Assembly: GCF_041468085.1 (NCBI RefSeq)
Contig: NZ_CP121017.1
Location: forward strand, 1,777,501 to 1,841,500
Direction: 5' to 3'
Length of the DNA: 64,000 nt
Origin: Tistrella mobilis
GTDB taxonomy: Bacteria > Pseudomonadota > Alphaproteobacteria > Tistrellales > Tistrellaceae
Below the pieces are notes generated by a model. It had not been told where the DNA came from and did no database searches. It saw nothing but the letters and a program-made list of their open reading frames with translations. The position numbers were made by a program, and so were the translations under genes. How positions within the stretch are numbered: position 1 is the stretch's first letter; every line of letters starts with the position of its first letter. This document shows positions 16,848-21,802 of this stretch, one piece after another.

Positions 16848-16966
16848 GATTATTATTTAGGCATAAATGGCAATGATCCCCGGATATCCCTGGAAGACCT
16901 TCGGAACAGGACGATCTAATAATTTGTTTTAAATGAGAAAAATAAGGAATTTGCCCAATTGGCATC

Positions 16967-17022: not shown

Positions 17023-17757
17023 ATGACCGATCAGACCCGACCCGCCACCGACGGCCCGCCGGGCGGGCTGCGCCGCAGCCTGGCCGACACCCTTGCCCGT
17101 GCGATTGCCGACGACATCATCGAAGGCCGGCTGCTGCCGGGCATGCGGCTGGACGAGCATGAACTTGCCGCCCGATTCGATGTCTCACGCACGCCGGTGC
17201 GTGAAGCCCTGGGCCAGGTCTGCGCCATGGGCCTGGCCGAACGCCGGCCCAATCGCGGCGTGCTGGTGATGGTGATGTCCGAGGCCCGGCTTGAAGAGAT
17301 GTTCGTGGCCATGGCCGAGCTTGAGGCCGCCGCGGCGCGGCTGGCCGCCCTGCACATGACCGGGGCCGAACGCCGCGGGCTGGAAGCGCTGCATCTGGAA
17401 AGCGCCGCCGCGGTGCGTGCCGGCGCGACCGACGACTATGCCGCCTTCAACACCCGCTTCCACCAGGCGATCTATGCCGGCGCCCATAACTCCTATCTGG
17501 AGGAGCTGGTCGGGCTGACCCGCAAGCGCCTGGCGCCCTTCCGCCGCGCCCAGTTCAATGTTCTGGGCCGGCTTGCCTCGTCCTGCGAGGAACATGACCG
17601 GATGGTGCAGGCGATCCTGCGCGGTGATGCCGAGGCCGCCGCCGCCGAAACCCGCGCCCATGTGCTGACGGTCAGTGCCGCTTCCGTCGCCTATGTCGGC
17701 ACCCGCGCCCGCAGCACCGCCAGACCCGACCAGCCCGTTGAGGACCCCGCCCGATGA
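17023..17757 (+). CDS. GntR-family (FCD subgroup) transcriptional regulator
   Basis: A 244-residue regulator. Residues about 15-80 form the winged helix (LADTLARAIADDIIEGRLLPGMRL, then FDVSRTPVREAL). The rest is an all-helical FCD ligand-binding domain with the expected metal-site histidines (FNTRFHQAIYAGAHN, plus a C-terminal AETRAHV). The ATG at 17023 is preferred because an upstream frame start would add 30 unusual residues and cover operator candidate 2. Its stop overlaps the allophanate hydrolase start by 4 bp. It most likely senses a ureide intermediate and controls both transcripts. Confidence 0.9.
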   Translation: MTDQTRPATDGPPGGLRRSLADTLARAIADDIIEGRLLPGMRLDEHELAARFDVSRTPVREALGQVCAMGLAERRPNRGVLVMVMSEARLEEMFVAMAELEAAAARLAALHMTGAERRGLEALHLESAAAVRAGATDDYAAFNTRFHQAIYAGAHNSYLEELVGLTRKRLAPFRRAQFNVLGRLASSCEEHDRMVQAILRGDAEAAAAETRAHVLTVSAASVAYVGTRARSTARPDQPVEDPAR

Positions 17758-19577
17758 CCCAGACCCTGCCAGCCGCTTTCGACATCGCCCGGCTCTCTGC
17801 CGCCTATGCCGCCGGCGAGACCGACCCCGTGATGGTGGTGCGGCTCGCCTTCGAGCGGATCCGCGCCTGGCCCGACCCTGCGGTCTGGATACTGCTCCGC
17901 GACGAGGCGGATCTGCTGGCAGAGGCCCGGGCACTGATGGCGCGGGGGCCCGCGGGGTTGCCGCTCTGGGGCATCCCGTTTGCGGTGAAGGACAATATCG
18001 ACGTGGCGGGGCTGCCGACCACGGCGGCCTGTCCGGAATTCACCTACACGCCTGACCGCTCGGCGACGGTGGTGGCGCGGCTGGTGGCGGCGGGCGCGCT
18101 GCTGATCGGCAAGACCAATCTCGACCAGTTCGCCACCGGCCTGGTCGGCGTGCGCTCCCCCTGGGGCGCACCGCGCAGCGCCTTCGATGCCGCCTATGTG
18201 TCCGGCGGGTCGAGTTCCGGATCGGGTGTCGCCGCCGCGGCCGGGCTGGTCTCGTTCTCGCTCGGCACCGACACGGCCGGTTCGGGCCGCGTGCCGGCCG
18301 CTTTCGGCAATATGGTGGGGCTGAAGCCCAGCCGCGGGCTGATCAGCGCCGCCGGTGTGGTGCCCGCCTGCCGCTCGCTCGACTGCGTCACCGTCTTTGC
18401 CCAGACCGCCGATGACGCCGCGGCCGTGCTGGATGTGGCGGCCGGCAGCGATCCCGCCGATCCCTATTCGCGCCCGGTGCCCTGGCCCAGGGGCAAGCCT
18501 CTGCCGGCGGTTCCGGCCGCCTTCCGCTTCGGCGTGCCCAGGGCGGCGTCGCTGGAATTTTTCGGCGACAGGCTCAACCCGCCACTCTTCGCCGCCGCCG
18601 TGGCGCGGCTTGAAAGCCTGGGCGGCGAGGCGGTCGAGATCGACCTGGACCCCTTCCTTGAGGTCGCCCGCCTGCTCTATCAAGGCCCCTGGGTGGCGGA
18701 GCGCACGGCTGCGGTGGGGGATTTCCTGGCGGCCAACCCCGAGGCCGGCCATCCCGTGGTGCGCGGGATCATCGAGGGCGGCCACGGCGTTACCGCGGTG
18801 GAGGCCTTCCGCGCCATGTACCGGCTGGAAGAGCTGCGCCGGATCTGTGATGCCGTGTGGGAGGCGGTCGACATGGTGATCACCCCCACGGCCGGCACGA
18901 CCTATACCGTCGCGGCGCTGGAGGCGGACCCGGTGCGGCTGAACAGCACTCTCGGCTATTACACCAACTTCATGAATCTGCTGGATTATGCCGCGGTGGC
19001 GGTGCCGGCCGGCTTTCGCAACGACGGGCTGCCCTTCGGCGTGACCCTGTTCGCGCCCGCCTTTGCCGACCGCCGGCTGCTGGCGCTGGGGGACCGGCTG
19101 CACCGGGCGGCGGGGCTGACCGCGGGTGCGACGGGGTTGCCGCTCGGACCTGCGGGCCCGCGCGGACCGGTCGAGGCCGGGCGGATGGTCGATATCGCGG
19201 TGGTCGGCGCCCATATGGCGGGACTGCCGCTGAACGGCGAACTGGTGGCGGCCGGCGCGCAGTTCGTGCGCGCGGCAACCACCGCGCCGGTCTACCGGCT
19301 TTATGCGCTGGATCAGCTGTCACCGGCCCGGCCGGGGCTGGTGCGGGTGGCCGAGGGGGGCGCCGGGATCGCGATCGAGATCTGGCGGATGCCGGTGGCG
19401 GCCCTCGGCCGTTTCGTGACCGGCATTTCCGCGCCGCTCGGCCTCGGCACGCTGACGCTGGACGACGGCAGCCCGGTTGCGGGCTTCATCTGCGAGGCCG
19501 CGGCGACATCAGGGGCCCGCGACATCACCGGCCATGGCGGCTGGCGCGCCTGGATGGCAAGCCAGGCCGCGGCCTGA
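17754..19577 (+). CDS. atzF: allophanate hydrolase
   Basis: A 607-residue enzyme that converts allophanate to ammonia and carbon dioxide in the cytoplasm. The amidase-signature domain has Lys79 (GIPFAVKDN), cis-Ser153 (SGGSSSGSG) and nucleophile Ser177 (GTDTAGSGRVPA). This spacing equals that of the K91/S165/S189 triad reported for AtzF. The separate C-terminal domain of allophanate hydrolases (about residues 475-600) is present and intact. Translation is coupled to the GntR gene by a 4-bp overlap. It completes the biuret route begun by the leftward operon. No urea carboxylase is nearby, so allophanate should come from biuret rather than urea. Confidence 0.93.
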   Translation: MTQTLPAAFDIARLSAAYAAGETDPVMVVRLAFERIRAWPDPAVWILLRDEADLLAEARALMARGPAGLPLWGIPFAVKDNIDVAGLPTTAACPEFTYTPDRSATVVARLVAAGALLIGKTNLDQFATGLVGVRSPWGAPRSAFDAAYVSGGSSSGSGVAAAAGLVSFSLGTDTAGSGRVPAAFGNMVGLKPSRGLISAAGVVPACRSLDCVTVFAQTADDAAAVLDVAAGSDPADPYSRPVPWPRGKPLPAVPAAFRFGVPRAASLEFFGDRLNPPLFAAAVARLESLGGEAVEIDLDPFLEVARLLYQGPWVAERTAAVGDFLAANPEAGHPVVRGIIEGGHGVTAVEAFRAMYRLEELRRICDAVWEAVDMVITPTAGTTYTVAALEADPVRLNSTLGYYTNFMNLLDYAAVAVPAGFRNDGLPFGVTLFAPAFADRRLLALGDRLHRAAGLTAGATGLPLGPAGPRGPVEAGRMVDIAVVGAHMAGLPLNGELVAAGAQFVRAATTAPVYRLYALDQLSPARPGLVRVAEGGAGIAIEIWRMPVAALGRFVTGISAPLGLGTLTLDDGSPVAGFICEAAATSGARDITGHGGWRAWMASQAAA

Positions 19578-19607: not shown

Positions 19608-19946
19608 TCAGCCGGCGATCAGCCGGCGCGCCGCGTCTTCGTCTTCCACCATCGGCAGCAGGTCGGCCAGGCCCGACATCGTGATGGTCTGGCCCACCTG
19701 ATCCTGCACGCCGACCAGAACCATCCGGCCGCCGCGGCGGGTGACCGTCTTGGCATTGGCGAGCAGCAGGCGGATGCCGATCGAGGCCAGGAAGGCCACG
19801 CCGGTCATGTCGACGATCACGTTCGTGGCGGCACCGCAGGCGGTGGAGACGGGCAGTTCGGCAGTGGCGCTGCCGGCGACGTCGAGACGGCCCTCAAGCA
19901 CGATCCGGGTGACGGCATCGTCGGACTTCTGGACGGAGATCTGCAT
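19608..19946 (-). CDS. STAS-domain anti-anti-sigma factor-like protein
   Basis: A 112-residue single STAS domain: an ISVQKS N-terminal strand, LEGRLDVAGSA, and VDMTGVAFLASIGIRLLLANAK, whose serine in the AS-G-I-R motif is the usual phosphorylation site. The domain ends with a LADLLPMVEDED helix. I use the ATG at 19946 because it leads directly into the first strand. No partner kinase or phosphatase is adjacent. It converges on allophanate hydrolase with 30 bp between stops. Confidence 0.85.
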   Translation of the reverse strand: MQISVQKSDDAVTRIVLEGRLDVAGSATAELPVSTACGAATNVIVDMTGVAFLASIGIRLLLANAKTVTRRGGRMVLVGVQDQVGQTITMSGLADLLPMVEDEDAARRLIAG

Positions 19947-20044
19947 CTGGGCGTGCTCCTGGTCGGAAAGGTCCGGCGGATCATGCCCCGGAATCATGAC
20001 AGTTTCATGTCGGTATTATGTGATGTCGATGTGGGGGGGAGGGC

Positions 20045-20728
20045 TCAGCCGCGCCGCGCCGCGGCATCGGCGACCGCCAGGGCCGTGGGCGTGTTGATGT
20101 TGAGGAACGGATCGCCGCCATCCCGCCGGGCAGGAAAATCGGCCGCAACCGCCCCCAGTGCCGCCAGCGCCCCGCCGAGCGATGCCGCCCTGCCGCCGCC
20201 CGAGGCGCAGGCCCGGGCGGTATCGGCCAGTGCCGAGACCCTGGGCGCCAGCGCCAGCGGCCAGAGCGAGACCACCGGATGGATGCGGCCAAAACTTGCG
20301 GCCACCGCCGGGCGCGGCGGGCCGCCCGCGGGCAGGGCGGCGAGCAGGCCGCGCACGAGACCCTCGGGCAGCAGCGGCGCGTCGTTGGGCACCACCAGCA
20401 GGGCGCGGGGGCAGGGGGTGAGCGTGGCGGCCCAGGCAAGACCGGCCTCGATGCCGGCGATCGGCCCGATCGGCGGCCCCGGCTGATCGATCAGCGCACG
20501 GAGCGCGCCCGAGGCGCAGCCGGGCGGCGTGTCGCCGGCGATGCGGGGAAGCGTGCGGCCGGCACGGATACTGATCGCCAGATGGCCGACCTGGGGGCGG
20601 ATGCGGTCGATGACGTGGATCAGCATCGGCCGGCCGGCCAGTTCCAGGGCGCCCTTGTCGACGCCCCCCATGCGCATGGCCTGGCCGCCGTTCAGGATCA
20701 GTCCCGCGATCTCCGTCCGTGCCGTCAT
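20045..20728 (-). CDS. mobA: molybdenum cofactor guanylyltransferase (MobA-like)
   Basis: A 227-residue nucleotidyltransferase that should attach GMP to molybdopterin. The LILNGGQAMRMGGVDKGAL motif is the GTP-binding loop, with Asn replacing the usual Ala of LAGGxSxRMGG. The second acidic motif is VVPNDAPLLP, and the C-terminal FLNINTPTAL matches the family's F-x-N-(I/V)-N-T-P. The ATG at 20728 has an AGAAGGA site at good distance, so I prefer it to an in-frame ATG at 20770. It is divergent from the SMR gene. Confidence 0.9.
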   Translation of the reverse strand: MTARTEIAGLILNGGQAMRMGGVDKGALELAGRPMLIHVIDRIRPQVGHLAISIRAGRTLPRIAGDTPPGCASGALRALIDQPGPPIGPIAGIEAGLAWAATLTPCPRALLVVPNDAPLLPEGLVRGLLAALPAGGPPRPAVAASFGRIHPVVSLWPLALAPRVSALADTARACASGGGRAASLGGALAALGAVAADFPARRDGGDPFLNINTPTALAVADAAARRG

Positions 20729-20810
20729 CGCCTGTTCCTTCTGCGGTGTGCGGAGCGCTGCCTTCGACATCTTGGCATTCCCCGGCCGCGGGGGCCAGCC
20801 ATGCGCGCAC

Positions 20811-20839
20811 TGGACGCATGCCCCGCCGGCGGCTATATA
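20811..20839 (+). promoter_or_regulatory. candidate sigma-70 promoter for the SMR gene
   Basis: TGGACG at 20811-20816 and TATATA at 20834-20839 are separated by exactly 17 bp. Transcription would begin near 20846, just upstream of the first riboswitch hairpin at 20860. Confidence 0.5.
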
Positions 20840-20859
20840 GCGGCAGATCGTGACGCGCC

Positions 20860-20952
20860 GCGGAGGGACGACCTTCCGCCCGGATCCGGCCTCCTTCCGG
20901 ATCCCGGTTCCGGCGCCTCTGCGGGGACGACCCTGCGCTTCATTGCGGGAGG
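20860..20952 (+). promoter_or_regulatory. guanidine-II (mini-ykkC) riboswitch candidate in the SMR leader
   Basis: Two hairpins with identical ACGA tetraloops define this class (consensus ACGR). P1 is 20860-20879, an 8-bp stem around ACGA 20868-20871. P2 is 20921-20936, a 6-bp stem with one G-U pair around ACGA 20927-20930. The 41-nt linker folds into a perfect 8-bp hairpin (20882-20889 with 20897-20904). Its 7-nt loop CCTCCTT contains CCTCC, the complement of the Shine-Dalgarno GGAGG at 20948-20952. The gene downstream is a Gdx/SugE-type exporter, the usual partner of this riboswitch. The structure suggests control of translation, with guanidine freeing the ribosome-binding site. Confidence 0.82.
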
Positions 20953-20961
20953 TCTCCGCAC

Positions 20962-21282
20962 ATGTCCTGGATCATCCTCGTCATTGCCGGCCTGTTCGAA
21001 ATCGGCTGGGCCGTCGGGCTCAAATACACCCATGGCTTCACCCGGCTCTGGCCGTCGGTGCTGACCGCCGGTGCGATGGCCGCATCCGTGGTGCTGCTGG
21101 GCGTGGCTTTGCGCAGCCTGCCGCTGGGCACCGCCTATGCGGTCTGGACCGGCATCGGCACCGTCGGCACGGTGCTGTTCGGCATCTTCGTGCTGGGCGA
21201 ACCGGCGACCGCGGCGCGTCTGGGCTGCATCCTGCTGATCGTCTCCGGCATCGTGGGCCTGAAGATTCTGGCATCTCATTGA
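20962..21282 (+). CDS. gdx: SMR-family exporter, Gdx/SugE type, likely guanidinium/H+ antiporter
   Basis: A 106-residue small multidrug resistance protein with four membrane spans, the standard length. Glu13 in the first span ([17 protein letters not shown]) is the essential proton/substrate carboxylate, and Trp16 with the KYTHGF segment places it with Gdx/SugE rather than EmrE. Gdx proteins work as dual-topology dimers in the inner membrane that export guanidinium. The start has a GGGAGG site (20947-20952). Regulation is probably by the upstream guanidine-II riboswitch. Family and context agree, so confidence in function is good. Confidence 0.92.
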
Positions 21283-21298
21283 CATTAAATTACGTTTT

Positions 21299-21325
21299 CG
21301 GGCTGCGGCGGCAGGTCGCAGCCCG
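21299..21325. other. GC-rich inverted repeat after the SMR gene
   Basis: A 9-bp stem (CGGGCTGCG with CGCAGCCCG) and 9-nt loop lies 17 bp after the SMR stop. The only T-run is upstream of the stem on the + strand, so it is not a canonical intrinsic terminator. It could still act as a 3'-end stabiliser. Confidence 0.4.
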
Positions 21326-21448
21326 GATTTGCCCTGGAACATGGAAGAAGTTTTTGTCAAGCCGTGAACTGCACGCGAAAGGCGCCCAAGTGGATCAATA
21401 GAGGCTGCGGCGCCTCGGCTGCAGCCCTGATCCAGATGGAGACCGATC

Positions 21449-21802
21449 ATGACCAAAGGTTCGCCGACCATCACTTTCCGCAACCTCGACCGTTCCCCGG
21501 CGATCGAGACGGCGATACACGATCGGGCTGAGCTTCTCTACCGCATGGGCGGACGTATCGAGCAGCTCCAGATCGTGATCGAGGCAGCGAACCGCACTCC
21601 CGACGATCGCGTGCAGGGCCTGACCGTGCGGGTGGAAATGGCGGTGCCCGGGCCGGACATCGTGGTGACCCGCATCCGCCCGCGTGTCTCCGGCCCCGAT
21701 GACGTGGTGCAGGTCGTCCGCGATGCGATGGACACCGCCCGCCGGCAGCTGGCGACCCGGCTGTCGCAGCGCCGCGCCGGCCGTGAGCGCCGTATCGCCT
21801 GA
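21449..21802 (+). CDS. HPF/RaiA-like ribosome-associated protein (S30AE family)
   Basis: A 117-residue protein with the S30AE fold: PTITFRNLDRSPAIETAI, a middle strand LQIVIEAANRTPDD, VRVEMAVPGPDIVVTR, and a basic C-terminal helix (DAMDTARRQLATRL) followed by an Arg-rich tail. It is the short form without the C-terminal dimerisation domain of long HPF. It probably binds the decoding region of the 30S subunit in slow growth or stress. A clear intrinsic terminator follows. Confidence 0.85.
   Translation: MTKGSPTITFRNLDRSPAIETAIHDRAELLYRMGGRIEQLQIVIEAANRTPDDRVQGLTVRVEMAVPGPDIVVTRIRPRVSGPDDVVQVVRDAMDTARRQLATRLSQRRAGRERRIA

Follow-up and report, generated by a model that had tools for sequence, protein, structure and literature searches.

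The gdx gene and its upstream region

The window, by which we mean the whole stretch of 64,000 nucleotides of Tistrella mobilis DNA analysed here, carries on its forward strand a gene of 106 codons for amino acids (20962..21282) that we predict to encode Gdx (SugE), a guanidinium exporter of the SMR family. The protein scores 142.6 bits against the NCBIfam SugE model NF008512 (cut-off 126) and also passes the Pfam SMR family. Its best match in the PDB is 6wk5 (E 2.5e-30), which we take to be Gdx-Clo. An earlier note on this DNA had pointed to an SMR gene with Glu13 and Trp16, and both residues are indeed present in the 106-amino-acid reading frame, together with S42, Y59 and W62. These five residues are named around the substrate site of Gdx-Clo, W16 being the one that separates Gdx from Qac (PMC7695847). 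The protein thereby shares with the Gdx-Clo/SugE exporters the SMR family and all five named site residues, and we noticed no difference.

A GntR-FCD regulator is found at 16933, and a minus-strand gene at 15505-16731 matches a BMP-type ABC transporter binding protein weakly (40.6 bits against a cut-off of 400). A full allophanate hydrolase is encoded at 17754-19577 (TIGR02713, 805 bits over 511), separated from gdx by minus-strand reading frames for a STAS-domain protein (19608-19997) and a MobA-like protein (20045-20770). Allophanate occurs as an intermediate when guanidine is broken down; a link of the locus to this pathway was nonetheless set aside, as the genome has no urea carboxylase above its cut-off. 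Gdx is followed by a small gene (21449-21802) with a weak match to the ribosome-associated S30AE domain (26.9 bits over 23.7).

The upstream region was compared in three Tistrella genomes: that of the window, G001 and T. mobilis KA081020-065. The last was assigned to this strain from an identical 6-kb plasmid stretch, and a replicon stretch in the genome of the window matches a plasmid of KA081020-065 with 94.7% identity.

A candidate promoter lies at 20811..20839 on the forward strand, with TGGACG (20811-20816) and TATATA (20834-20839) separated by 17 bp. TGGACG and TATAT are identical in all three Tistrella leaders while the spacer between them has diverged, which makes the promoter plausible though weak. 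The promoter claimed in the earlier note is borne out only in part: the 17-bp spacing is there, but it has only 8 of the 12 consensus bases (counted by hand), and a promoter scanner that requires 9 of 12 found none.

Two ACGA hairpins of the guanidine-II class

Two hairpins stand between this candidate promoter and gdx. The first, P1 (20860..20879, forward strand), has an ACGA loop on 8 bp. The second, P2 (20920..20937, forward strand), has the same loop on 6 bp at 20921-20936, or on 7 bp at 20920-20937 if the closing U-G pair is counted. Apart from this optional pair, the coordinates bear out the earlier description of two hairpins with identical ACGA loops on 8-bp and 6-bp stems. Both are GC-rich, with ACGR-type loops closed by GG/CC, and P2 ends 24 nt from the gdx start codon (20962). 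The leader shares with guanidine-II riboswitches (RF01068) the pair of GC-rich ACGA hairpins and its place immediately ahead of the gdx ribosome-binding site.

This is the sole pair of GACGRC hairpins 5-60 nt apart on either strand of the window, whether stems of at least 4, at least 5 or at least 6 bp are required. In first-order Markov sequences, such pairs arose by chance with a mean of 0.01 per 64-kb strand for stems of at least 4 bp and 0.0 for stems of at least 6 bp (100 trials). As a plain sequence pattern, GGACGRCC-N25-55-GGACGRCC matches 6 places in the genome and the reversed pattern 64, so that the pattern is not specific by itself. In the 200 nt ahead of the genome's second SMR gene (33.96% identical), hairpins of this kind are absent.

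The two ACGA hairpins and a 40-nt linker are found in all three Tistrella genomes. P2 is invariant, and the P1 stem differs yet stays paired: compared with T. mobilis KA081020-065, bases of P1 have changed and the pairing is retained.

For a wider comparison we used 160 SMR loci, distant SMR paralogues included: 80 named loci (the top 80 from a larger set), 24 from 59 near genomes and 56 from 386 genomes of the class. A strict search for GACGRC hairpins within 200 nt upstream found two hairpins at 77 loci, one at 19 and none at 64. Among the 77, 76 are distinct, with linkers shorter than 20 nt in 54 and of at least 20 nt in 22.

From the 54 distinct short-linker leaders, none of which comes from Tistrella, we built a covariance model (R1). 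Its rows were picked for having hairpins, so pair counts on this alignment are not independent evidence for P1 or P2. R1 matches the window at 20861-20936 with 34.0 bits (E 2.9e-5), the next place scoring 14.5 bits. Across the 6.3-Mb genome the element again ranks first (34.0 bits, E 0.0029), followed by a place with 16.7 bits, with 150 of 8511 first-look candidates scored. This independent model supports the earlier assignment of a guanidine-II (mini-ykkC) riboswitch before a Gdx-type gene, and the element is a member of this known RNA class, of which 1977 distinct bacterial representatives were counted in 2025 (PMC12335538).

The Rfam model, which the earlier note had put forward as the check, gave another outcome: at the gathering threshold the whole window returned no match. 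At a loose threshold RF01068 reaches 22.5 of the 32 bits needed, with the P1 of the model aligned to a hairpin in the linker. This best match was therefore rejected as the true aptamer, the linker hairpin having been mistaken for P1. A separate loose match on the true P1 scores 17.4 bits. Searching the genome with RF01068 gave ten sub-threshold places, among which the one that overlaps this element is sixth with 16.7 bits (150 of 1675 candidates scored). A CcsR1 match (20.1 of 65.3 bits) was taken as a chance resemblance to CCUCCU. Guanidine-I and guanidine-III riboswitches were found nowhere in the genome at E 0.001 among the first-look candidates scored (150 of 183 and 150 of 1815, respectively).

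A score below the Rfam threshold would fit hairpins that are a decayed or chance pair rather than a sensor. Against this, the loops and GG/CC closures are intact in the three congeners while the P1 stem covaries, and the chance expectation is about 0.01 per 64-kb strand; we consider such a pair very improbable.

The main ligand might also be a guanidine derivative such as methylguanidine, since guanidine-II RNA binds methyl- and aminoguanidine within a factor of four (PMC5486947). Yet both loops are ordinary ACGA loops, with nothing that sets them apart from the class, and this reading too is improbable, if a little less so than that of a chance pair. We keep guanidinium as the presumed ligand.

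A third hairpin in the linker

The 40 nt between P1 and P2 are at the top of the published range of 7-40 nt for guanidine-II linkers (PMC7544219). They hold a third hairpin, absent from the earlier note, which we call P1b (20880..20907, forward strand). P1b begins on the base after P1 and has 10 bp with a one-base bulge at 20903. It occupies 28 nt and leaves 12 nt before P2. Model R1 places a 29-nt insertion at 20879-20907, almost exactly over P1b.

The case for P1b comes from covariation in one comparison of congeners. Between the window and T. mobilis KA081020-065, four consecutive pairs of the ten have changed on both sides and would still pair (G-C to A-U, A-U to U-G, U-A to A-U and C-G to U-A). 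In T. mobilis KA081020-065 the register is shifted by one base, the bulge lies elsewhere and the stem is two pairs longer. Within the leader, P1b has a mean pair probability of 0.73 in the window, 0.96 in G001 and 0.96 in T. mobilis KA081020-065.

Taken in isolation, the linker is only marginally more stable than its shuffles in the window (p 0.045), with p values of 0.12 in T. mobilis KA081020-065 and 0.465 in G001. It then also prefers another pairing, of bases 1-5 with bases 30-34 (-19.8 against -15.2 kcal/mol in the window, -13.4 against -12.1 kcal/mol in G001). This alternative keeps 12, 11 and 8 of its 12 pairs in the window, G001 and T. mobilis KA081020-065, respectively, and was rejected. 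Its mean pair probability within the leader is 0.13, 0.01 and 0.00 in the same order.

The P1b loop reads CCUCCUU (20890-20896) in the window and complements GGAGG, which would suit an anti-Shine-Dalgarno element. With CUUGCCU as the corresponding loop in G001 and CGGG in that of T. mobilis KA081020-065, the sequence is not conserved, and we reject this as a general mechanism.

P1b may instead be neutral filler, that is, an insertion in a tolerant linker that folds only through its G+C content and takes no part in sensing. Most gdx leaders do with short linkers (median 16 nt among the 76 distinct leaders), the linker has been called poorly conserved (PMC9561414), and shuffled linkers of the same composition also fold well. 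However, four of the ten pairs have changed on both sides between two congeners with the pairing kept, and in Rhizobiaceae a hairpin of unrelated sequence stands at the same place, directly after P1. We give the filler explanation somewhat under an even chance.

If P1b does take part in sensing, it may do so by compacting the linker. In guanidine-II RNA, kissing of the two loops makes the stems collinear, and a 14-nt linker must then span 49 Å (Huang et al., PMC5486947). The 12 nt left by P1b could roughly span the kissing distance. No mention of a linker-inserted hairpin is made in the available portions of PMC7266159, PMC7544219, PMC9094411, PMC5486947, PMC9561414, PMC9300104, PMC9481103, PMC12335538, PMC7695847 and PMC7736828; a published consensus figure may already show an optional one. 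The full-length guanidine-II aptamer had not been crystallised as of 2020 (PMC7544219).

Long linkers and the Rfam model

Next, we looked at linkers and their folds across the survey. Linkers of at least 25 nt occur in 13 of the 76 distinct leaders. A fold of -3 kcal/mol or lower is found for 18 of the 22 linkers of at least 20 nt compared to 2 of the 54 below 20 nt. Folding improves with length in any case, and taken alone this difference is weak.

A stricter test required an uninterrupted helix that starts at linker base 1 or 2 and leaves 5-13 nt before P2, with 1000 rounds of shuffling. Helices of at least 5 bp were found in 9 of the 22 linkers (shuffle mean 1.5, maximum 5), and of at least 4 bp in 12 of the 22 (shuffle mean 4.2, maximum 10). 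Among the nine rows with at least 5 bp, two are Tistrella leaders that qualify by way of the alternative pairing, and in one (L040) the 13-nt spacer disagrees with the row's own fold. The remaining six are all Rhizobiaceae, and the stricter test thus supports the pattern in Rhizobiaceae only.

In total, nine of the 22 long-linker rows are Rhizobiaceae or titled Rhizobiales. All nine folds leave 7-8 nt before P2, and the hairpins differ widely in sequence across the nine rows. Three further rhizobial plasmid records have the same arrangement, two of them, from Sinorhizobium, with identical linkers. Single rows with a similar linker fold (L116, and L093 from Achromobacter) are leads, and the linkers of L013 and L088 are unremarkable next to their shuffles. 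On a Roseovarius plasmid (L183), the 200 nt upstream of sugE hold no guanidine-II hairpins; the neighbours of this sugE in its gene run are two ornithine cyclodeaminase genes and one for RidA.

Rfam at the gathering threshold was run on all 22 leaders with linkers of at least 20 nt and on control leaders. RF01068 found 7 of 7 controls (linkers of 8-20 nt, L087 included), 4 of 9 leaders with linkers of 20-22 nt (L087, L041, L121 and L157) and 0 of 13 with linkers of at least 25 nt, three of which are the Tistrella leaders. The failure of the Rfam check at our element is thus shared by every long-linker leader of this group. The likely reason for the miss here is the 40-nt linker with its third hairpin, and we take the miss as a limit of the Rfam model rather than as a property of the RNA class. 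The nine rhizobial rows all have CAG/CTG in place of GG/CC around the P1 loop, which also lowers their Rfam score; linker length is therefore not the sole cause there.

This offers a likely reason why guanidine-II members with long, structured linkers go uncounted. The natural series of linkers could also serve to find the length of spacer required for the loop-loop contact.

A predicted closing helix

In the minimum-free-energy fold, the sequence just before P1 would pair with the 3′ portion of the 12-nt spacer that precedes P2. The 5′ arm, GACGCGCC (20852..20859, forward strand), and the 3′ arm, GGCGCCTC (20912..20919, forward strand), form a predicted helix of seven pairs and one mismatch. 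One inner pair that we examined has a predicted probability of 0.94-1.00 in the three leaders, with P1 and P2 forced or free. Both arms are invariant in all three Tistrella genomes while nearby bases vary, and this invariance leaves the helix without support from covariation.

If formed, the closing helix would join P1 and P1b into a predicted three-way junction. Almost no spacer would then be left, and the account of P1-P2 kissing through a 12-nt linker fails. The helix could belong to the OFF state, or it could position P1.

A helix that involves the 5′ flank has also been modelled for the guanidine-II riboswitch of Pseudomonas aeruginosa, as P0 (PMC9561414). In that model P0 is formed between the 5′ and 3′ flanks, with the proposed role of masking the Shine-Dalgarno sequence, whereas in the Tistrella leader the predicted partner of the 5′ flank is the linker. 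Compared with guanidine-II riboswitches at large, the Tistrella element differs in its conserved linker hairpin, in the Rfam miss at gathering and in the predicted helix between leader and linker. For a specialist, the conserved linker hairpin, the predicted three-way junction and the scores of such members below the standard model might be unexpected.

A broader reading, tentative and in our view rather unlikely, is that guanidine-II riboswitches with long linkers are a structural subtype of their own, spread over more than one lineage and missed by Rfam, in which a hairpin next to P1 compacts the linker for P1-P2 kissing. In Tistrella, the junction closed by 20852-20859/20912-20919 would then gate or pre-set the kissing.

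A putative translational ON switch

The Shine-Dalgarno sequence GGGAGGT lies at 20947..20953 on the forward strand, and overlaps a competitor arm, GUCUCCGCA (20952..20960, forward strand), that is predicted to pair with the 5′ arm of P2 (20920-20928) over 9 bp in an OFF state. The minimum-free-energy fold of the leader lacks P2 and has 20920-20928 paired with 20952-20960, with the Shine-Dalgarno sequence enclosed. A competition between P2 and a Shine-Dalgarno hairpin, predicted here, was proposed by Huang et al. for the guanidine-II riboswitch of Gloeobacter (PMC5486947).

Forcing P1 and P2 to form raises the unpaired probability of GGAGGT from 0.33 to 0.68 in the window. The corresponding values for the Shine-Dalgarno sequence are 0.32 to 0.54 in T. 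mobilis KA081020-065 and 0.32 to 0.49 in G001. The cost of forcing is 5.6 kcal/mol in the window, 5.4 in T. mobilis KA081020-065 and 4.5 in G001, figures that are not a test of the ligand. Covariation lends no support to the OFF pairing, which hardly varies among the three congeners.

Across 73 gdx leaders with P1 and P2 forced, predicted Shine-Dalgarno accessibility goes up by more than 0.1 in 31 (29 with rounded values) and down in 8. With shuffled tails (12 sets), the same forcing gives 7-18 rises and 3-12 falls. These forced folds fit the ON switch proposed for Gloeobacter (PMC5486947) and the guanidine-dependent rise in ribosome loading through guanidine-II in P. aeruginosa (PMC9561414).

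We propose the following sequence of events. The transcript would start near 20846, and P1 and P1b would fold side by side. In the absence of guanidinium, the 5′ arm of P2 would pair with 20952-20960, holding the Shine-Dalgarno sequence in a long hairpin with little translation of gdx. Guanidinium bound in both ACGA loops would stabilise the P1-P2 kissing pair, P2 would form and the competing hairpin would be lost. P1b would compact the 40-nt linker to 12 nt, or to almost none if the closing helix forms. The freed Shine-Dalgarno sequence would allow gdx to be translated, and Gdx would export guanidinium. In this proposal we infer the ligand, the kissing contact, the direction of the switch and the role of P1b.

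Control through transcription termination rather than translation is known from guanidine-I and -IV riboswitches (PMC5486947, PMC7736828). Nevertheless, no intrinsic terminator or terminator-like site was found at 20700-21450, P2 overlaps the predicted hairpin that contains the Shine-Dalgarno sequence, and the guanidine-II class is called exclusively translational (PMC9561414). Termination is hence highly unlikely here. Overall, we are confident that gdx is preceded by a guanidine-II riboswitch, which probably binds guanidinium and probably works as an ON switch of translation.

One-hairpin leaders and divergent arrangements

The 19 survey loci with a single strict hairpin might suggest single-hairpin riboswitches. 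This reading was rejected, as 14 of the 19 have a second element at a plausible distance, either a GACGRC motif (12) or an ACGC-loop hairpin (2). Seven of the 19 pass Rfam as guanidine-II. In two leaders upstream of gdx (L063 and L124) the loop of the second hairpin is ACGC and not ACGR, which would alter the fourth base of the aptamer loop.

A different arrangement is seen about 125 to 25 nt before gdx at one locus (L012), with GACGRC motifs at -119 and -38; two further hairpins form in the long stretch between the hairpins of these motifs. Neither the strict search nor, as a pair, model R1 picked up this arrangement.

Finally, a 2022 review judged it unlikely that single guanidine-II hairpins would be found (PMC9481103). 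Two Gdx-like genes (L158 and L168, with L152 similar) are preceded, at 35-37 nt from the start, by one strong CCGGGACGGCCCGG hairpin. Around the hairpins of L158 and L168 there is no further GACGRC motif; the one at L152 lies as far away as -147, and L016 has a weak one at -70.
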